64,000 nt of DNA, from the NCBI RefSeq assembly GCF_022201045.2, contig NC_068558.1:46775001-46839000 (forward strand), written 5' to 3'. This document shows, one piece after another, positions 4,589 to 56,100 of the stretch; positions within the stretch are counted from its first letter, which is position 1; each line of letters starts with the position of its first letter. The position numbers and the translations under genes were made by a program. The notes beneath the pieces were generated by a model. It made no database searches. It was not told the DNA's origin and saw only the letters and a program-made list of their open reading frames with translations. This DNA comes from Citrus sinensis (taxonomy: Eukaryota; Streptophyta; Magnoliopsida; Sapindales; Rutaceae).

Positions 4589-5555
4589 TTAGAATTGAAC
4601 ATTGCTTTTGAAAGATTGGCCAAATCTCCAGTTGGAAGGTGCAACGTTATAGGCTGTGCGGGTCCTTCCATTGCTAGTTTGGACTCTAAAGGACAAGCTC
4701 TGAGCATTGAGATAAGTCAAACTCTGCCAATTAGCTCCCCAGTTCCTTGACATCACTTGCCATTTGCTCATTTTGGATCCCTTGATCCACACATTAGAAA
4801 CCTCTCCAGCTCCTCCAACATTTGAAACAAGCACAAGCTCAAAGTAGTCCCTTCCATTTATTGTGAATCTAAGGCCTCCACTTCTCATGCATCCAACCCT
4901 GGTGAACGACAAGAAACCTCAGTATATATACAGAAGACGCCCACCAAAGAAGAAACAAAAATGCAAATTTTTTTAATGAAGAATGAACATACTTTCTGTA
5001 GAGTACGGGTACAATTCCGGCTCTGTAAATGGCAATGGACTCAAATGCAGGCTGAGACATGTCAAAGTGCGCCCGTGGAGGGTTGCACCAACCGCCGTTG
5101 TCGTTAGGCAGATCATAGTTTGGCGGGCAGAAGTTTGTAGCCGTAATGATGATGGATGTCCCCCGGCGGCACCATTGCGGCACCTTCCTCCCGTCGCAAA
5201 CGATGTGATAGCACCCACCACAAGACTTTCCATTATTGAACAAAACTGTGCTCAATGCTGCAGTTTTTGTGCCATAACCATCTGTGTATAAGTTTCCATA
5301 TCCACAAGCACCACCTGAAAGCCGAAGTTCAAAATCATTAGCATAAAATTGAATGTAAATGAATAATGAATTAAGCGACATATTGTTTATTCTTGCCATT
5401 ATATAAATAGAAAACATACCCATTGTTTCTGAAGCATCACTTCCACCGTAGAAAGTTGCATGGGCTTGCATCCAAGCAGCAGAAGCTGCATTAATTTTAA
5501 TGGAAAGTAACGTTAAGATCAGCGCCACAAAACTGAAAGCAAAGAAACCTTCCAT
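4589..5555 (-). CDS. Alpha-expansin, 3 exons
   Basis: Exons in transcript order are 5555-5420, 5314-4993 and 4898-4589, giving 255 residues, the normal length for alpha-expansins. Residues 1 to about 24 form a signal peptide for secretion to the wall. Domain 1 (six-stranded barrel, GH45-like) shows [10 protein letters not shown] at 46-55, the paired cysteines, [10 protein letters not shown] at 103-112, GGWCNPP and the HFD motif at 128-130. Domain 2 (carbohydrate-binding, pollen-allergen-like fold) holds [16 protein letters not shown] and the terminal [15 protein letters not shown]. Expansins loosen cellulose-xyloglucan contacts in acidic walls without hydrolysis. The intron positions follow the conserved expansin pattern: one after the first glycine of the GGACGYG motif and one between the two domains. 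I cannot assign the numbered EXPA subgroup with confidence. The opposite-strand open frame at 4349-4750 is its shadow. Confidence 0.95.
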
Positions 5556-21061: not shown

Positions 21062-24000
21062 ATGCCAAGAAGATCACAAATATATAGCCATCATTATCAA
21101 CTTCACTTACTCCTACTTAATAAATTACTATGTTTTCTTGTTGGTCTCCAAATTATCTGCAGTTTGCTGGCTGTGGCTTCTGCTGATGGTCTTGCTGAAG
21201 ATAAGAATGCACTGCTCCAGCTCAAATCTGCTATTACCGAAGACCCATTAGGATTAACTTCTAATTGGAACCCTAAAGACACGGACTCATGCTCGTGGCA
21301 CGGGGTCACTTGTGACCCACTTTCTGGTCGCGTCACATCTCTCAACCTTTCCTCCAATCTCAGCCTCACCTCATGTTCTCTGCTCTCTCTCCCACCAGCA
21401 GCTGGACCTGGAGGTAACTTTTCTTTCCACTTTCCTTGCTTGCAGTTGCATCAGCATGACCGCGGAAATATCAATAGTAATTCATCAGATAAATTAAGTG
21501 GAAATCTGTCACGTGCAATTGGTGACCTAACTCAACTTAGGGTTTTGTTGCTTGCCTTCAATGGGTTTTCCGGAGAGTTGCCGCTGGAGATTGGTCAACT
21601 TTCTCTTTTGGAGATTCTTGATTTGAGTTTTAATTCTTTTCACGGACCTATTCCACCCACTCTCCAAAATTGTTCTTCATTACGACTTATTAATTTATCT
21701 GGGAATCAATTTAACGGAACAATCCCGGCATTTTTTGGACAGTCTCCGGGTTTCCAAGTTGTTTCGCTTTCTTTTAATTTGTTAAGTGGTTCAGTTCCTG
21801 AGGAATTTGGTGACAATTGTGTGAGTCTTGAGCATATTCTTTTGGCTGCAAACTCACTTACTGGTTCGATTCCTCCAAGCTTGGGGAATTGCACTGAGCT
21901 TCGGTCTTTACTTTTGTCTTCGAATATGTTGCAAGGTGATATTCCTTCAAGTTTTGGTCAACTTGTGAATCTTGAAGTTCTTGACTTGTCCCGGAATTTT
22001 TTGAGTGGTATTGTACCATCAGAGTTGGGCATGTGTAAGCAGTTAAAAGTTCTGGTACTGAGGAATGACTATGGCCCTCTGTATTCAAGAGAACATGGTG
22101 ACTTGCCAATTCAGCCGGTGGTTGATGGAGGGGAGGATTATAACTTTTTTGATGGTGGATTGCCTGATAGTATTACTAGACTTCCAAATCTTCGTGTATT
22201 TTGGGCACCGAACTTGAATTTGGAGGGCATTTTTCCTCAAAACTGGGAGTTGTGTTCTAAATTGGAGATGCTGAATTTAGCTCACAATTTCTTCACAGGA
22301 CAAATACCCGCCTCCCTTGGAAACTGTAAGAGCTTATACTTTCTTGATTTGAGCTCAAATAACTTGACTGGGTTGCTTCCTGAAGAAGTTTCTGTGCCGT
22401 GCATGGCTGTCTTTAATGTTAGCCAAAATCTTTTATCTGGAGAAATTCCTAGAATTTCTCACAGTGAATGCTCTAAGATGTCTGTAAATTGGTCAATGTC
22501 ACATGTTGATTTGATTGGTTTTTACACAGCTTTCTTCTATGAAAATGCACTAACCAGTTGTGCTCCTTTTTCTTCTCCTTCCAATGGTTTGTTTATATTA
22601 CATGATTTTAGCAACAATCTCTTCACTGGTCCAGTTCCACCCTTTCTAATTGATTCAGATAGTTTGTCTAGTAGGCCTTACTATGGTTTTTGGTTGTCTG
22701 GGAACAGTCTCAAGGGCAATCTTTCGACATATCCATTTGATCTGTGCCTCAGTTTGGATGGGCTAATCTTTGATATTGGAAACAACAAACTTATTGGCGA
22801 AGTTCCTTCAGATATGGGTAGCCATTGTAAATGCATGAAATTTCTGAGCATGGCTGGCAATGAATTTGTTGGTTTAATTCCACAGAGTTTCACTAACTTT
22901 GATTCCCTACGTAACCTCAACCTCAGTAGAAACCATTTGCAAGGTCCCTTACCATCCTATATTAACAAGATGGAGGACTTGAAATTCCTTTCTCTGTCCC
23001 TCAATAACTTTACGGGTGCAATACCTTGGGAGTTAACTCAACTGGCTTCATTGGAGGTTTTGGAACTTTCTGCAAATTCTCTCTCAGGAGAGATACCCTC
23101 TGAATTTTCCAAACTTGAGCATCTGAATGTTTTGAGGTTAGATCATAACAATCTCACTGGAAGGATACCCCCTGGCTTTGGTACCAGATCTTCGCTCTCA
23201 ATATTTGATGTGTCTTTCAACAACTTGTCTGGATCTGCCCCTCGGAACTCTTTGATTAAGTGTGAAAATGTTCAAGGAAATCCTAATCTTCAACTGTGCC
23301 ATACTGATCCATCATCCTCCGAATGGGAGCGGCAGCATTCTGGTAATGTTTCCCAACAAGAAGCTTATTCCCCTTCTGAAAGCATACAAGGAAACAGCAG
23401 TGGGCTTAATCCAATAGAAATTGCCTCCATCACATCAGCCGCAGTCATTCTTTCTGTCCTGATAGCCTTGGTGCTTTTGCTTATATGTATGAAGAAATTT
23501 TCTTGCAATTCTATAGCTGATCCTGGTTTAGTTAGGAAAGAGGTTGTAATTTGCAACAACATTGGTGTGCAGCTGACGTATGAAAATGTTGTTAGAGCTA
23601 CAGCTGGTTTCAATGTTCAAAACTGCATTGGAAGTGGAGGTTTTGGAGCTACATACAAGGCTGAAATCATTCCTGGAGTTGTTGTGGCTGTAAAGCGGCT
23701 TTCTGTTGGGCGGTTTCAAGGTGTTCAACAATTTGCTGCTGAGATAAGAACTCTTGGGAGAGTGCAGCATCCTAACCTTGTAACACTGATAGGCTACCAT
23801 GTCAGTGAGGCAGAAATGTTCTTAATCTACAACTACTTGCCTGGTGGCAATCTGGAAAAATTCATCCAGGACAGACCAAGGAGGACTGTGGAATGGAGTA
23901 TGCTGCACAAGATTGCCCTAGATGTTGCACGTGCCCTAGCTTATTTGCATGACGAGTGTGTACCGAGGGTACTGCACCGTGATATCAAACCGAGCAACAT

Positions 24001-24451
24001 ATTATTGGATAATAACTTAAATGCATATCTATCTGATTTTGGCCTTGCAAGGCTTTTGGGTACTTCAGAGACACATGCTACTACTGATGTAGCAGGAACT
24101 TTTGGATACGTTGCACCTGAATATGCAATGACATGCCGCGTTTCTGATAAGGCAGATGTGTATAGTTTTGGTGTTGTCCTTCTTGAATTAATATCTGACA
24201 AGAAGGCTTTGGATCCCTCTTTCTGTTCCTTTGGAAATGGTTTCAACATTGTGGCTTGGGCAAGTATGTTACTTCTGCAGGGGCGACCCTGTGAGTTCTT
24301 TACAGCTGGGTTATGGGATTGTGGACCCCATGATGATTTGATTGAGATGCTCAATTTGGCAATTATGTGTACTGGTGAATCTCTTTCCTCCAGACCTTCT
24401 ATGAGGCAAGTAGCACAACAGTTAAAGCAGATTCAGCCGCCAGCATCTTAA
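21062..24451 (+). CDS. RPK2: LRR receptor-like kinase RPK2 (TOADSTOOL2), intronless
   Basis: One uninterrupted frame of 1129 residues, close to the length of Arabidopsis RPK2, which also lacks introns. Residues 1 to about 41 form a signal peptide. The N-terminal LRR cap contains DSCSWHGVTCDPLSGRV. Many 24-residue LRRs (L..L.L..N.L.G.IP) follow, with a larger insert around 340-365. One membrane span lies at about 786-807 (ITSAAVILSVLIALVLLLIC). The kinase domain shows GSGGFGATYKA (about 856), VAVKRL, VLHRDIKPSNILLD (catalytic Asp in HRD, about 972), DFGLARLLG (about 991) and GTFGYVAPEYAMT. The kinase is RD-type with all core residues. The C-terminal half matches RPK2 very closely, including FNAYLSDFGLARLLGTSETH-like text. 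In Arabidopsis RPK2 acts at the plasma membrane in CLE-peptide signalling of meristems and in anther and embryo development; the same role here is inferred. Confidence 0.97.
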   Translation: MPRRSQIYSHHYQLHLLLLNKLLCFLVGLQIICSLLAVASADGLAEDKNALLQLKSAITEDPLGLTSNWNPKDTDSCSWHGVTCDPLSGRVTSLNLSSNLSLTSCSLLSLPPAAGPGGNFSFHFPCLQLHQHDRGNINSNSSDKLSGNLSRAIGDLTQLRVLLLAFNGFSGELPLEIGQLSLLEILDLSFNSFHGPIPPTLQNCSSLRLINLSGNQFNGTIPAFFGQSPGFQVVSLSFNLLSGSVPEEFGDNCVSLEHILLAANSLTGSIPPSLGNCTELRSLLLSSNMLQGDIPSSFGQLVNLEVLDLSRNFLSGIVPSELGMCKQLKVLVLRNDYGPLYSREHGDLPIQPVVDGGEDYNFFDGGLPDSITRLPNLRVFWAPNLNLEGIFPQNWELCSKLEMLNLAHNFFTGQIPASLGNCKSLYFLDLSSNNLTGLLPEEVSVPCMAVFNVSQNLLSGEIPRISHSECSKMSVNWSMSHVDLIGFYTAFFYENALTSCAPFSSPSNGLFILHDFSNNLFTGPVPPFLIDSDSLSSRPYYGFWLSGNSLKGNLSTYPFDLCLSLDGLIFDIGNNKLIGEVPSDMGSHCKCMKFLSMAGNEFVGLIPQSFTNFDSLRNLNLSRNHLQGPLPSYINKMEDLKFLSLSLNNFTGAIPWELTQLASLEVLELSANSLSGEIPSEFSKLEHLNVLRLDHNNLTGRIPPGFGTRSSLSIFDVSFNNLSGSAPRNSLIKCENVQGNPNLQLCHTDPSSSEWERQHSGNVSQQEAYSPSESIQGNSSGLNPIEIASITSAAVILSVLIALVLLLICMKKFSCNSIADPGLVRKEVVICNNIGVQLTYENVVRATAGFNVQNCIGSGGFGATYKAEIIPGVVVAVKRLSVGRFQGVQQFAAEIRTLGRVQHPNLVTLIGYHVSEAEMFLIYNYLPGGNLEKFIQDRPRRTVEWSMLHKIALDVARALAYLHDECVPRVLHRDIKPSNILLDNNLNAYLSDFGLARLLGTSETHATTDVAGTFGYVAPEYAMTCRVSDKADVYSFGVVLLELISDKKALDPSFCSFGNGFNIVAWASMLLLQGRPCEFFTAGLWDCGPHDDLIEMLNLAIMCTGESLSSRPSMRQVAQQLKQIQPPAS

Positions 24452-40000: not shown

Positions 40001-43000
40001 AGATCATATCATGGTTATACTAAGGCCAATATTTTGGTCGCCAACTCTAAGAAAAATAATGGAAATACTAACCACAGACTCAGTTCTGAAACAGCCAAAC
40101 ATACCTTGTAAACATGTGGTGCACCGTGAATTTGTATGTGGCTGGAAGTTCGCTGACCAGGAAAGAAGTACATTTTCAGTATAGAGCCTTTCCCCAAAAC
40201 AGAACCATTACGTGCCCTGACAATGGCCTCCATTACTGCATCTCCATGCTGGGATTCTTGTGGTGCTCTCAGTTCTTCCTGCAAACCCAAAAGCAAAGTT
40301 AGTATGCAAGCATGTTTTCAAGTCATTAAAAAAGATTTTAAAAAAATAAAACAGAAACAAAAAGAGCATGTTTTCATTTATCACTTGAGTTACTATAAAA
40401 ATCAAGAGAAGAAGATTTACAGGAACAGTAAGAAATCGCCCAGGCCTTATTCTTATGCTCCATTTCATTGCTTGGACTTCTGGTCTTTGACGCAACCAAC
40501 TTTTGAATGTCATCCTAGATTCTCCTTGTCCACAAAACCCATCAAATGCTTCACTTCCAAGATAAGCCGCAAAGGCAATTAAACGGAAGTACCGTTCCAA
40601 GTACTCTGCACCACGGCTAAGTGCTACCATCCTAACCCTTGGCTCAACATGTTGTTGATTGAACACCTTTCTGTAATGTAGAACAGCTTCACGTATGTTC
40701 TGCAGAGCAGAACATCTATCAATAATAGCATCTAAGGCCTCACGGCATTTGACTCCATTATCAAATAATCTTGTTATCTTCCACAACAACAGGATATCAT
40801 CTATGCCAAATGCACGGCCTTTTCCTTCACTTCTTACTTTTGAAATACTGGAGGTTGATGCAGCACCATTGCCTCCATTTTCTTCACCACTTGAGCTCCC
40901 ACTGTCTAACTCTTCATGTGTCACATCTTCATGCAGAACTCTAATGGGTCTCCCATAATCAATTCGAAGCTTCAGAAGACAAGCAATGACGGTACCAGTA
41001 GTTGTCCTTCCTCTACCCATCTGTAATATAAATAAATAGAAAACAAATGTAAGCAAAAATGAAAGCATAAAGCAGACAAATACATAGAACATAGTGAACA
41101 CCTCCATATCCAAACAACAGAAGCAACTAAGGTGCAAAAGCTTTAACCTGACAATTGAAAACAAAAGCAGTATCCTTAGAAGCAGAAGCGATATTCACAG
41201 CCAGCATGTCAAAGTCAGAAGTCTTGGGAGCTTTTCCATCAGTGATTGGCACACGTGCATACTTAATGGGAAAACCATCATCTTCTAAGCATTTGAATAC
41301 CTCAAGTGGTGTCTGAACAGACTCAGAACTCACGTGTTCCCAAGCATCGAATATTTGCCCATCATTTGTTTCATGAATGACCATTATAGCACCACCATAG
41401 CGTTCAGCTTCTCGCAAAATATCTTCTTTCAATCGAGCTTCCATTCTCTCAACTCTCTCACGATCAATTCCCTGAATGCACATATCATTTTTCGAACTTC
41501 ACCAGTTATGACTGAACAAAATGAGGGAAATTCAGAACAGTTAAAAACAAATAACACTTAAAAAGGAGATAAGGGCTCCACATTATTTTAAGACATTGCC
41601 AAAACTACTTCAACATGTCCTTAATAAGAATATAATTTACCACAGTGAAACACTCAAACAGCAGCGACACAACAGTTGATGAGAAATAGTACACTTTATG
41701 ATAGCTTTTACTCTGCTTTTAACAAAATACAGACACATACACACAAGAAGAAAAACAAAGTATGCCATCCTTGTTGTGCCTATTTCTTAATATCACAAAA
41801 TTGATAGAAATTCTGTGCTTTGTAAAATAGTTAGCAATGTCCTGTGTCTTGATCAAACAGACAATACTGCTGGCCACCATTTAGTGATGAGACCATGCAT
41901 ATTCACCAAAGCATTGTCTGCACATGGACTTGGTTTTTTAATTACCGCACTCCTTTTAGATATTGAGCAACACTTGTAGTATTGTAATTATATAAACTTC
42001 TAGTGTCATCTTACTCTGATATGGATCCAAGTGAAGCGCATAAAGTAAACCAACTCTGCGCCTAAATGCGATATCATGTACATCATCCGCTTCAATGAAG
42101 TTTATATATGTATGGAGAAAATAATAAATATACCGTATACTCCAGCATATTTTTGTAAGGTCTTTCAACTTCACGGAGGACAAATGGCTTCCCATTGATG
42201 TAGATAACAGGTTCTTCTCTCATATTATGCCAAAACACTGGGCAACAACCTTTGAAGTGGCCAATCCTCCTAATGACAGATCGAATACCATCAATAGTTG
42301 GATTTGCAACTCCATAAACTGGAAACCCAGAAACTTCCCTGAAATTGGGTGCACCCTCCACTCTCTCTGGTAAACTTTGGTTTTGACAACCAGGACAATG
42401 ATCACTTTTAAGAACAGTTTGACTTCCTAGTACTTGCCCATTCCTCAGAGCAGCAACGACCCCCATCTCATGAGGGCGGCCATCCGCAGATTCAGCCATC
42501 TTCATCAGAGATGGCTTCACATTTGCATACCCAAGAGCACCCATTGGATCTCTCCTGAGCAACCTAAAAGAGGGCACAAGCTCAGCAAAAGAAGTAATAC
42601 AGCAAACATTAAACAATGCCTAAGATAGTAAGATATCATCTATTTTTTTAGTTGATGGAACAGAAAATATGGCATCACATTTATAAACAATCAGGCACTT
42701 GAGACATTATCTGTGTCATATAGTGTGATAAGGAAAAATACATATTTAAAACTGATCAGGGGCAGCATGGACCTATAGAAGCTTCGCTTCTAAAGAGTGA
42801 CTTGATTCAAGTGATAGGGACGTTAAGCAGAAATGGAAGACATGAAATGATGTAGGCCATAGTGAAAAGAGATCTCGTTCATCAATAACTGATATAGAAT
42901 TATGGCAAGCGATGTGGCAGAAAGGAGAGAAAAGACTTGCGTGATTCCGGCTATTTTGGGAATAAAATTTGGTTGAGTAAGTTTGTGCATGTCTAAAGAG

Positions 43001-46000
43001 ACATATCGATTGATCAGAAAGGAAACTTTTGCATAATAGCTACTTGTATATATGTACCTGCGGATAATGCTATATAACTCAGGTCTGGCTTTCATCCAGT
43101 CAGCAAAACTACTATGACCAAAAGAACTAGAGCAAAGGGCTGCTCTTTCTGTATGAATATATACAGCAAAGCATATGAGAAAGTAATATCTCTCTAAGTA
43201 CTCCACGAAAAAAGAAAGTGATGCCTGCCTCTTCATCTCATCTGGTTGACGCAGAATACTATTTCGATAAGTGGCAATTGCTTCACGTAAATTCTGTAAT
43301 TCAGTAAAGAAACCTTTCAATGAGGTGAAAACCCCATAAACTGAAAATTAAAATATACCTTATACATAAACAGTTTAAAATGATGTAGTACAAAACAACG
43401 AAGGCAAACTAACTCGGAGAAACTTTCATGAAACTAGAACACTTAGAAGCTATAACCAAATGGTTTGATATATCTACAGAACCATACCTGCATGGAGGCA
43501 CACTTGTCAATTACTTTATCAACTTGTCTTTTGCCTTCAACACCACCCTAAAGACATTTCCCCCTTGATAAAAAGATCAAAGAAAATGATAAATTTAAAC
43601 AAGTGGATAAACAAACTAGTGATCAATACCTCTAAGACCCGTGTCAAGCTTCTTATGACTGCATATTCTCCTCTACGAATTGCCTCCTCTGAGTTTGGCA
43701 AATTATCGGCAACACTAGAACCGGAGTCAAAAACTCTGCCAATTGAATTTGTTCTTGGGATGCCTATATTATGTGAACATACTACATAAGTATACATTAT
43801 TATTTAACGATCAAACTATTACACCCATTTAGCAAATCAGACACAATGGTACGTTGAAAGAAAACCAAGTCACCTTTCCAATTGCCTATTATATTTCTTT
43901 TTTTCTGTTTTCTTTTACCACCTACAGATCAATGTTTTTTGCATTCCACCTATGTTTGATGCCGGACTTTGTAGTGGTTCAGTATTTGAATGGTCAAGCA
44001 ATCAAGAAGCTGAGTGAGCACCTACTTTGGTTTAAAATTTTGAGAGAGTCTTTTGGCCAGAATACTTAACTTTATGCTATTTTTGATATATTTAATCATA
44101 TAACCGGATCTAACAAAATCAAAAATAATTTTCACAAACCTGAATATATTTCTTATTTTTCCCATTAAAAGAGTCAACAAGGTATTTTCTCCCTAAGATA
44201 GCACTGTATATCGAGGATAGAACCAAGAGGAGACAAATCCATGCACTGGTTTCGCTAAACATAGGAGGTTCCAATTAACTATTTCATATATTTGCATGTT
44301 TCATGTCTATGCAGGATAGAACTCCTCTCCTGTTCATGTACTGACACCTACTAATAAGCTCGTCAACCTCTAAATCCTTAAAAGTGCTCAACACCTCAAA
44401 CTAAGATGGGCCTTGGTGACACGGCGAAGTTTTGATTAGGAAAACATGGATCAAACCTAATCCAAGTCATGGACAATAAATAGTTTTATATATCAGTTTG
44501 ATTGATCAATTTATTATTTAAAATATATATATATGTATGTATATAATTGCACTGCATCTAGACACATGAAATCCTCCAGCTCCCTGACATACCAATCAAG
44601 TTTCAGTCCCAAGTATACAGCAGATGGGCTGCAGCAACAACCATGGTCCTAGGACACAATTGCCTTCTCATAATATCAATATTGACAAAAAGATAATGAA
44701 AAGATAAATTGATACTGATAATAGTGATGGAATATACTGTAAGAGAGAGAGAAATAGTATAATAATTGAGTGATACTGATAATAGTTATGGAATATATTT
44801 AGAGATAGCAAAAATGGTGTAGTATGTTTGAGTAAAGGAAATACAAGGGTACCAGAAGCTCCAATTCGGTTGAGGTAAACCAACGTTGCAATCACCATTC
44901 CTGTTGTAGTTCGTCCACGTCCCATTTGACAGTTAAAAATTACCTCTGTGTTTAAGTCAGTTTGAGAAATTTTATCAACCTGAAAACAAAAAGAAAGCGC
45001 AGAATATTATTTCTGGAAATTTCTGAAGAATGGATGTATACTGTCAGCGCGACTTCAAATCCAGAGTTGTTAAATTTTTACATATAATATAGGCCACGCC
45101 ATGAGCAGAACCACCATCATTAAGACTTAAGAGAAATGTTATTATCAGACTAGATAAACACACTAAATATTTTGGTGGCAATTGTCCAGGTGCAAAAATG
45201 AGTTTCTCAGTGATCTGATGGATGCATACATGTCAGCCCATGAGAGAGAGAACAATCAAAGAAGAAAGAATCCTCATACTTTCTCCAAATAACAAGAAAG
45301 AAATTAGTCAACAAGCTGAAACGGGGTAACTCCCGGTTCTCATGAAAACATATACTGTTACAAATCCTAAAATAAGACGTAAATTAAGAAAACCCACCAA
45401 GATATCAAAATCCTGCTCCTTTGGTGATTTTTCATCAGTTACAGGAACACGTTCATAATCAACAAGGTAACCTTCTACCTGCAATTCCTCATACACCTAC
45501 AACAAAGAACACATTTGCAACCATAACAAGTTTGCAACAAGATAGCTTTCTAATTGCACAAATTGAAAGCAAAGGCCTAGCATCATACATCTAGCGGTGC
45601 CTTCACAGAATCACATGATACTGGTTCCCATTGGTCCACCATCTGACCATCTGGCAGTTCATCAGTGACAAGGATTTTATTTCCAAATCTGCTATGTCAA
45701 ATGTCCAAAACAAATATTCTATTACGAGAAGCATTAGTAACCGGTGCTAAAGACAAATAGAACCATTATAGGTACATAAAGACTAACAGGGCATAGGACC
45801 AAAGGATGTACCTTGCAGCTTCCATTATAATGTCTTCTTTCAATCGAGCTTCCATCTGTTCAACCCTAGCCCTGTTGATTCCCTACTCCAAAAAAGAAAG
45901 TCATGACTGATTGGCAAGAAATGAAAACTATGATAATTACTTGCGGGGACCCTTAGTAGGTGGTAAGCATGTAAAACCTATACATAGCAAGAATGTGTAT

Positions 46001-53242: not shown

Positions 53243-55779
53243 TCAAGCTGAAGCATCCTCAAACATATCTGCACTTGTAATCTCTTTGACAAGATTTTTG
53301 GATGAAGGCAAACCAGCAACCACATCCTCTTCAATACCACACTCATTTGATCCTCTTTTAATCTTGAAGTAACCATCCTGTTGTGCAAATAAACAGTAAT
53401 TAATATTTGATGACAGAAATTCCTAGCTTCAATCAAAATTAGTCATCTAATGTGGAGATATTTTTGATGAAAACATACCGCACCCCAGCTTCTATTCCAC
53501 TGATTAGCGAGAATCTGTAACAGAGAGAAGGTATATTATCTCGTACATGATCTCAATAAGTTATATAGTCATTACTATAAAAGTTGTTCGAGTAGAGAAA
53601 TTGTCAACATACCCAGTAATCCTCGCCATCATCACTAGTTCCCCAACCAATAAGCTTAACAGCATGACCCCCCATTACATCGCCTGTGATGTGTTTGTAG
53701 ACCCCAGATTTGTAGTGAGCAAAATCCTGTAAGATGGTTAAGAAACCATAGAAATCAAAAAGAATGTCTTTCCTAATATATATATATATATATATAACAA
53801 TTTGTAATAATTGAGCATCTTGCATGGTACAGAATAAGTGACAAATGAAAGGAAAGACCAACAGAAGCAGGCCAATAGTTAAGATTCATGCCCAGAAAGA
53901 TGCAGAAAAGTCAGTAGAAGAGTACAAAGTAAGTGTTTGTTTTACCTCATAAACTGTGAAGGAAACTTCAACTGGTCCATTCTTGTAAATTTCTGCCATT
54001 ATGTCCTCTGGATCAGAATTGATTCTATATGCACTAATACTGTAGTGCTTTGAATTCCTCCAAAGCTGGTTTTTCTTGACGCACTTCCTCACACACTTTG
54101 GAGTAGGATATGCCGGCTCACAACCAGGGTGGGAACAGCCAGTACTATCAAAGTAGGGATCACACTGCCAGATTAAAAAAATATATATATTATTTATAAT
54201 TTGAGCACATAATCCATGAGTAAAATCAGTAAGACATAAGATAAGTCAGAAAATATGTAATATAATCTGAAAGAACCTCTAATTTCACATTAAACAACCT
54301 GAACTGAAAAATAAAACGAAAGATTAATTGAAGGCAAAAACCAGTAGAGTAATACCTCTTCGGTAACAACACCATGGTGGACAAAGTATCGCCATGCAGA
54401 AATTGGATAACCCCCGTCACAACCATCTCCACACAAAAAGCCACAGCAGGCTAAAAGATCATTAACTGATAGAGATAGGTTCTGCAATGAAACATATGGT
54501 GATGATGATAATGCATCTCTGTTTGTTCTGGTAACAGACATATTAACATTTCCCAAGACCCAAAGTTATCGTCAAGTTCAGAAGTTTCAATTACCATGCC
54601 AAAATGGATGCAGAAACGATCAGATAGCGCTTCAACAGCACCAAAAGCCCAACAAGAACCACAATGGCCCTGAATCACCAAAATCTCAACATGCTCAGAA
54701 TTTGTAAACGGCATTCATATGTAGACACGTGAAAACAGTATTGCGACAAAAGCCAACAATAACCAGAATGAAATTTTCCTATGAGTAGTTTTACAATTGC
54801 AAAAGGGGGTCAATATTACCTGATCTTTGAATATGGAAATCAATCCAGCATTTGACACATGAAACATAAAAGCATCAGCACCATTCAAAAAAGCCTCGAA
54901 TTACAAAAAGCCAAGAAAAGTAACTTACCTAGGATCCTACTAATGGTGCTGCATTGTGGCCAAGCGGACCTTGCATCAAAGCTTTTAGGCAACTTCAAGG
55001 ATTTGTCATGAGTTTTAACAGGGACACCCAAGAGCAGCCCTTTAGGTGTTGGCTTGACTCCAAGAAGGTGCTTAAATTGCCCAACCTATGCATCAGGGAA
55101 AATAAGAAAAATAAATATAATTCAGCAACTACCTCCTTAAAAAAGAAATTATCTGAAACAAAGTTCTGTAAGTCTTAAACTCACAGTGTAATTGGAAAAT
55201 TGAGGATTTCTGGCAGCTTTCCATCCAGCCTTAGGGTTCTCATTCACTTCTTTGATGATTGAATCCTGCGCGAGGGCCATAATAACCAAAATTTAGTGAT
55301 TTGTGCAACTCAATCAATCAAAAAATATAAGTATTTTCCCGCCTTAAAATCACCTGGAGAATATGAGAATCAAGCTTGAGCTTGGAAACCACTCCCTCTG
55401 CAAAAGTCTGCAAACAACACCACATCCAATTACTTCGGATGATATATATAACCATTTAAATTCAAAACATAGTAATAACCAGAACCGCAAAGCAAGTCAA
55501 ACACAAAATTGGATCCATAATCAGTTTGGTTGGTTCCATAACTTATGATAAACTCCACCAGCATGCTACACAGTTCCCATTAGTAAAAAAAAAAAAAAAA
55601 AACTGTGTTAGTTGTTGAAATTTCATCTGTAATCTAATTGACTATACTATAACATACAACTAAATCATCCGATCTGCTTTAAGTGTACTCATCAGCAACC
55701 TCATCTTTTTATTCAAACCTTTCCCTGTATTATGTCTGAACTTGGCATACACTCTCCGTGTGTTTATAGCAATTAAAGA

Positions 55780-55813
<34 letters not shown>

Positions 55814-56100
55814 CAACCACAACAATAATAATAATAATAACTTTCGGATTCCCACAACATAGAGGATACAATCAAATCAGATGAACAAGTTTCGCATAAA
55901 ATCGAAATCTGATCCAGATTCTCTCCATACTTAAACAGGTCAAAAGGCGAAGAAAAAGAGAAAGATAGATGCATAAACAACTAAGTAAAGGATTCAATTC
56001 AACGTGAAAAAAAAGAAAAGAAAGCTAGCACACGTACCTGGGAGGAGATAACGCCAAGAATTAACAAACATGTAGTAAGAAAGAGGTGAGATGAAGCCAT
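53243..56100 (-). CDS. Cathepsin B-like cysteine protease, 11 exons
   Basis: Exons in transcript order: 56100-56038, 55407-55354, 55265-55185, 55085-54929, 54824-54820 (5 nt), 54669-54595, 54481-54356, 54164-53946, 53726-53613, 53514-53479 and 53377-53243. They give 354 residues. A signal peptide (1 to about 24) and propeptide precede the mature C1A papain-fold enzyme, which starts near [10 protein letters not shown]. Catalytic residues: Cys about 126 in [11 protein letters not shown], His about 281 in [11 protein letters not shown] and Asn about 302 in [23 protein letters not shown] and the occluding-loop region [17 protein letters not shown] mark it as cathepsin B rather than a papain or cathepsin L type, so both endo- and dipeptidyl-carboxypeptidase activity are expected in the vacuole or apoplast. 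In plants these proteases act in cell death, defence and senescence. The 5-nt exon is needed to keep the frame. Confidence 0.95.
53776..53796 (+). repeat. TA microsatellite, cathepsin B intron
   Basis: About ten TA units lie in the intron between the fourth-last and third-last coding exons (exons 8 and 9). Confidence 0.8.
54820..54824 (-). other. 5-nt micro-exon of cathepsin B (ATCAG)
   Basis: On the minus strand the sequence reads TATTCAAAG, then ATCAG, then GTAATATTG: an AG acceptor, five bases and a GT donor. The upstream exon (ends at 54929) closes in phase 1 with a single G. The downstream exon (starts at 54669) opens in phase 0 with GGC CAT TGT. The five bases turn G+AT into Asp and CAG into Gln, giving [12 protein letters not shown] exactly as in plant cathepsin B proteins. 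No other acceptor near 54669 keeps the frame. Confidence 0.9.
55781..55811 (+). repeat. AAT microsatellite, cathepsin B intron 1
   Basis: About ten AAT units, followed by more AAT units near 55824-55841. Confidence 0.85.

Follow-up and report, generated by a model that had tools for sequence, protein, structure and literature searches.

Organization of the locus and identity of the predicted protein

The window, i.e., the whole stretch of 64,000 nucleotides of Citrus sinensis DNA analysed here, harbored a cathepsin B-like protease gene at 53243..56100 on the minus strand (start to stop codon). The joined model, open throughout, comprised 11 coding exons of 63, 54, 81, 157, 5, 75, 126, 219, 114, 36, and 135 nt (a length that counts the stop codon) and encoded 354 amino acids. 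GT-AG borders were found at all 10 introns, whose lengths ranged from 88 to 630 nt, a range that also includes the two introns flanking the 5-nt exon. Nine of the introns were in phase 0, and only intron 4, which enters the micro-exon, was in phase 1. The coordinates given in the initial annotation proved right when read on the minus strand, and the features around the micro-exon are listed in Table 1.

Table 1. Features of the micro-exon locus within the cathepsin B-like gene (positions in the window; slashes mark exon borders)
Feature	Position	Strand	Description
Exon 4	54929..55085	-	157 nt; phase-1 end inside the Asp119 codon (...ATC CTA G); donor TAG/GTAAGT
Intron 4	54825..54928	-	104 nt, phase 1; acceptor AAAG, the sole AAG among ten
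Micro-exon (exon 5), ATCAG	54820..54824	-	Last two bases of Asp119 plus Gln120; aaag before, gtaata after
Intron 5	54670..54819	-	150 nt, phase 0; donor CAG/GTAATA, acceptor TTCAG (attcag/GGC CAT TGT)
Exon 6	54595..54669	-	75 nt; starts at Gly121; carries catalytic Cys126 (GHCGSCWAF...)
TGA, premature stop on micro-exon skipping	54632..54634	-	The last exon junction lies 532 nt downstream

Domain profile searches with the 354-aa product returned Peptidase_C1 at 231.2 bits (cut-off 20.7, E 2e-68) and Propeptide_C1 at 56.3 bits (cut-off 32.7, E 3e-15), and the procathepsin B structure 1pbh was matched at 2.3e-89. In the list of 60 solved relatives, the best 26 were cathepsin B, cathepsin B-like, or cysteine peptidase C entries, from 303.2 bits downward; the 27th was named just 'Cysteine Protease' (190.4 bits), and dipeptidyl peptidase 1 (131.0 bits) and cathepsin H (103.8 bits) came further down. 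Among the matches listed, the closest solved relatives of the predicted product are cathepsin B, not cathepsins C, H, L, or S, and we assume that the gene belongs to the CTB subfamily (MEROPS C1A). Motif positions gave the set Gln120, Cys126, His281, and Asn305, which we take to be the C1A active site; the Gln was present only with the micro-exon. The occluding loop with its His-His pair is the basis of the carboxydipeptidase activity of cathepsin B. In the alignment with 1pbh, the present product had a reduced occluding-loop region with many gaps, and non-His residues stood opposite the His-His pair of the human enzyme; hence the label 'cathepsin B-like' is used.

Other genes were also detected in the window, whose gene content looks typical of a plant. 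An intronless ORF at 21062-24451 (plus strand) encoded a 1129-aa LRR receptor-like kinase, presumably RPK2-like, with matches to Pkinase (1.1e-42), several LRR families, and LRRNT_2. Three exon-sized ORFs were located at 40208-43320 (minus strand), two of which were scanned: 42092-42616 matched PTPlike_phytase (2.5e-9), and 40208-41164 was below the cut-off (7e-4). These ORFs probably belong to one gene for a paladin-like phosphatase. In addition, a 228-aa ORF at 4869-5555 (minus strand) matched DPBB_1 (1.4e-23) and EXPB1_D1 (1.4e-6), and is probably an expansin-like gene read across an intron.

The predicted five-nucleotide exon and the residues it encodes

The initial annotation had stated that naive joining of the neighboring exons shifts the frame and would suggest a pseudogene, and this was confirmed, as the direct join of 54929 to 54669 caused a frameshift with a stop at 54634 and a product of 130 residues. 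Its proposal that a 5-nt exon bordered by AG and GT restores the frame also held. The final G of exon 4 and ATCAG together form GAT CAG, giving DQGHCGSCW, and the frame then remains open to the stop ending at 53243, as in the 354-aa model. Retention of intron 4 resulted in a stop after 132 codons, and retention of intron 5 in a stop after 154 codons. With 5 nt and a GT-AG intron on both sides, the exon lies within the size criterion of plant micro-exons (<=15 nt).

For the splice signals, the donors of introns 4 and 5 matched MAGGTAAGT at 8/9 and 7/9 positions, respectively. The acceptors of the gene were CAG in 8/10 introns, TAG in one, and AAG in one, the AAG being that of the micro-exon (AAAG/A). 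Acceptors of the AAG type are less favoured in plants. Moreover, the end of the micro-exon carried a back-to-back acceptor and donor, CAG/GTAATA (54814-54822, minus strand), a possible zero-length recursive splice site. Choice of this inner AG would produce a zero-length exon and regenerate the donor, and a second splice to exon 6 would then yield the skipped product.

The two residues completed by the micro-exon, D-Q, were found at the aligned place in 8/8 cathepsin B alignments inspected, which represent seven distinct chains and two different sequences in this stretch, presumably human and rat. Gln120 is located six residues before Cys126. As this spacing equals that of Gln19 and Cys25 in papain, we take Gln120 to be the oxyanion-hole Gln of C1 proteases, the counterpart of papain Gln19. 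The initial annotation had described the encoded residues as lying directly before the active site; given the presumed oxyanion-hole role of this Gln, they are more than merely adjacent to it. In that role, Gln120 makes the micro-exon part of the catalytic machinery, and an enzyme lacking this residue should be inactive even if the reading frame were kept.

To evaluate the insert, the 259 nt separating exon 4 from exon 6 were screened for all single AG/n/GT inserts of 1-30 nt. The frame was restored by two of them, and ATCAG was the sole stop-free one, the other being 29 nt long and containing a stop. The null model consisted of 20,000 dinucleotide shuffles of the same interval. The D-Q-coding insert AGAYCARGT appeared in 27/20,000 shuffles, and a D-Q 5-mer leaving both introns at >=60 nt in 14/20,000. 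Under the same intron limit, 4,917/20,000 shuffles contained some stop-free 5-nt insert, and 13,943/20,000 contained some stop-free insert of 2-14 nt that restored the frame. Because so many shuffles achieve it, frame restoration alone is weak evidence, and the D-Q residue match is the strong part of the case for the micro-exon. The sequence, the frame, the splice dinucleotides, the uniqueness of the insert, and the residue agreement with cathepsin B were all established.

Papain-like relatives and published plant micro-exons

Relatives were searched exon by exon in the genome (299.7 Mb, 11 contigs), and the resulting counts are lower bounds. A second cathepsin B-type gene was not found in this genome, the hits outside the window being other papain-like genes with 29-49% identity, often over short stretches; the cathepsin B-like gene is apparently single-copy here. 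Three of the nine papain-like loci scanned (L002, L006, and L014) were interrupted by an intron immediately ahead of GSCW/GCCW, i.e., some codons further downstream than in the cathepsin B-like gene; a first, stricter motif scan of the same nine loci had given no match. In a scan of 20 loci for the upstream motif, DQG/NQG-x-CG lay whole in the upstream exon at six (L002, L003, L006, L007, L008, and L020, i.e., five places, as L020 overlaps L006), and the matches at L009-L014 were other sequences. The remaining loci gave no match to the upstream motif, which is uninformative in view of the narrow motifs and search range. In the genes seen, in which one upstream exon carries the complete DQG/NQG motif, the 5-nt exon is therefore not a shared papain-like feature. 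Furthermore, one viral-contig scan yielded seven stretches that matched a pattern, and none of the seven was a relative. A tandem papain-like array was also observed at G000:C2:5592938-5662535 (L006-L008 and further hits), with five equal scores (9.9e-68), partial hits between them, and three of four gaps of about 12 kb. This array may represent a recent, or assembly-made, duplication.

The closest published counterparts are plant genes of the same family, including AtCathB3/AtCTB1-3, RcCTB1, and JcCTB1. According to the passages available, plant CTB genes usually have ten introns, as here, whereas AtCTB1 has nine (PMC5762910), and the active-site Cys of AtCathB3 is encoded in exon 6 (PMC3991739), also as here. 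Barring 5'-UTR introns, the present model arrives at ten introns and a Cys in exon 6 only with the micro-exon among its exons, which suggests that the 5-nt exon may already be contained in the curated Arabidopsis and Euphorbiaceae models. The same passages make no mention of a 5-nt exon, none is stated among the published exon counts they give, and these counts could include UTR introns. Most plant species are described as having one cathepsin B member (PMC3991739, PMC5762910), and an Arabidopsis relative was reported to affect germination (PMC3991739).

Micro-exons as such are well documented in plants. In the sections available, 2,398 micro-exons of <=15 nt were reported from 10 plants, most of the coding ones being in the major isoform and most being unannotated, and a rice 5-nt micro-exon (Os08t0562700) was confirmed by RT-PCR sequencing (PMC8831610). 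A total of 45 conserved clusters, MEP01-MEP45, have been described (PMC8831610, PMC12409088); like the exon studied here, their members are <=15 nt, coding, placed between two introns in a conserved domain, and easily missed. The view of the initial annotation that an exon of this kind is easily overlooked by annotation is supported. Cluster 7 shares the size and phase of the present exon (5 nt, phase 1) but lies in Peptidase M1, an unrelated enzyme. The word 'cathepsin' was absent from the main texts of PMC8831610 and PMC12409088, the cluster table being in the supplement, and cathepsin was not named in the available parts of PMC11096116, where the same clusters were applied to algae, or of PMC10808074. 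Also, a literature search judged by title and the start of the abstract found no publication with an explicit cathepsin B micro-exon. The 9-nt mini-exon of potato invertase and the 1-nt exon of Arabidopsis APC11, as cited in a part of PMC4674806, are likewise very short, constitutive plant exons; they belong to other genes and differ in size, and they were characterised experimentally, whereas the present exon is known from sequence. Animal neuronal micro-exons are also very short, and approximately 80% of the human ones are multiples of 3 according to the relevant passage of PMC8831610; unlike most of these, the 5-nt exon here would always shift the frame when toggled.

Probable inclusion of the micro-exon and competing readings

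The micro-exon is very probably real and normally included in a functional plant cathepsin B-like gene, an estimate that covers both the reality of the exon and its normal inclusion, and with which regulated inclusion overlaps rather than forming its complement. Introns 4 and 5 would be removed by intron definition, probably in two steps, and the spliced join ...CTAG/ATCAG/GGC... would encode DQGHCGSCW, with the putative oxyanion-hole Gln supplied by the micro-exon. Skipping or retention would lead to a premature stop and a dead transcript that is probably NMD-sensitive, and inclusion would be kept high by selection, since non-inclusion yields such a transcript. We infer the actual splicing, the high inclusion, the order of intron removal, NMD, and that other plants have conserved this micro-exon.

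Several readings in which the micro-exon plays no part were weighed against this one. A pseudogene or recently broken gene, with a real frameshift and ATCAG as a chance match, would be compatible with the 13,943/20,000 shuffles that provided a stop-free frame-restoring insert; yet the insert matches cathepsin B precisely in coding for D-Q, as only 27/20,000 shuffles did, and a second cathepsin B-type gene was not found in the genome. Given also that the remaining frame and all other splice sites are intact, this reading is rejected as having almost no probability. A frameshift mimicked by misassembly within exon 4 or exon 6, making the micro-exon unneeded, is extremely unlikely too; nothing was found in favor of it, both exon borders are canonical splice sites, and exactly the D-Q codons are missing between them. 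Restoration of the frame by another splice solution, whether through a different donor, a different acceptor, or a non-canonical site, is highly improbable. The enumeration covered GT-AG sites changed one at a time, and within the interval an open frame resulted neither from another GT donor spliced to 54669 nor from another AG acceptor spliced to 54929. Frame-keeping sites did occur in the exons themselves, namely four GTs in exon 4, one of them being the first two bases of the exon (equal to dropping it), and one AG in exon 6, but all of these drop conserved residues, and with the exon 6 AG, at which the exon would resume at 54629, the catalytic Cys is removed.

A regulated micro-exon, whose inclusion varies with tissue or condition and whose skipping turns the enzyme off via frameshift, premature stop, and NMD, is unlikely, although several observations accord with it. 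The stop at 54634 is 532 nt before the last junction, and the AAAG acceptor and the CAG/GTAATA context could permit recursive splicing through a zero-length exon, with skipping as the outcome. In addition, the passages available report alternative splice isoforms, of a kind they do not specify, for castor bean RcCTB1 (PMC5762910) and more frequent detention of the introns flanking plant micro-exons (PMC8831610). On the other hand, a weakly defined exon can be skipped non-productively without any regulation, and a PSI >0.5 is reported for the majority of coding micro-exons in plants, the authors leaving it open in the part available whether the minor forms are functional or noise (PMC8831610). 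The suggestion in the initial annotation of a possible on/off control through inclusion is unsupported. A stricter form of the idea, an all-or-none gate in which choice of AAAG gives active protease and choice of the inner CAG gives a zero-length exon and a frameshifted, NMD-sensitive mRNA, is very improbable.

In summary, the cathepsin B-like gene looks like a carrier of an ordinary plant micro-exon, the twist being that a catalytic residue resides in the five bases, and the finding amounts to a neat pitfall for annotators, not to a novel switch in biology. If the micro-exon is missed, an intact, apparently single-copy protease looks like a pseudogene or loses its presumed oxyanion-hole Gln in annotation. 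The locus is well suited to testing micro-exon-aware annotation and to studying how a 5-nt exon with an AAG acceptor is spliced in plants. Were inclusion regulated, the micro-exon would switch cathepsin B directly at the post-transcriptional level, and were the all-or-none gate true, moving the acceptor by 5 nt would tune a protease that is apparently single-copy.
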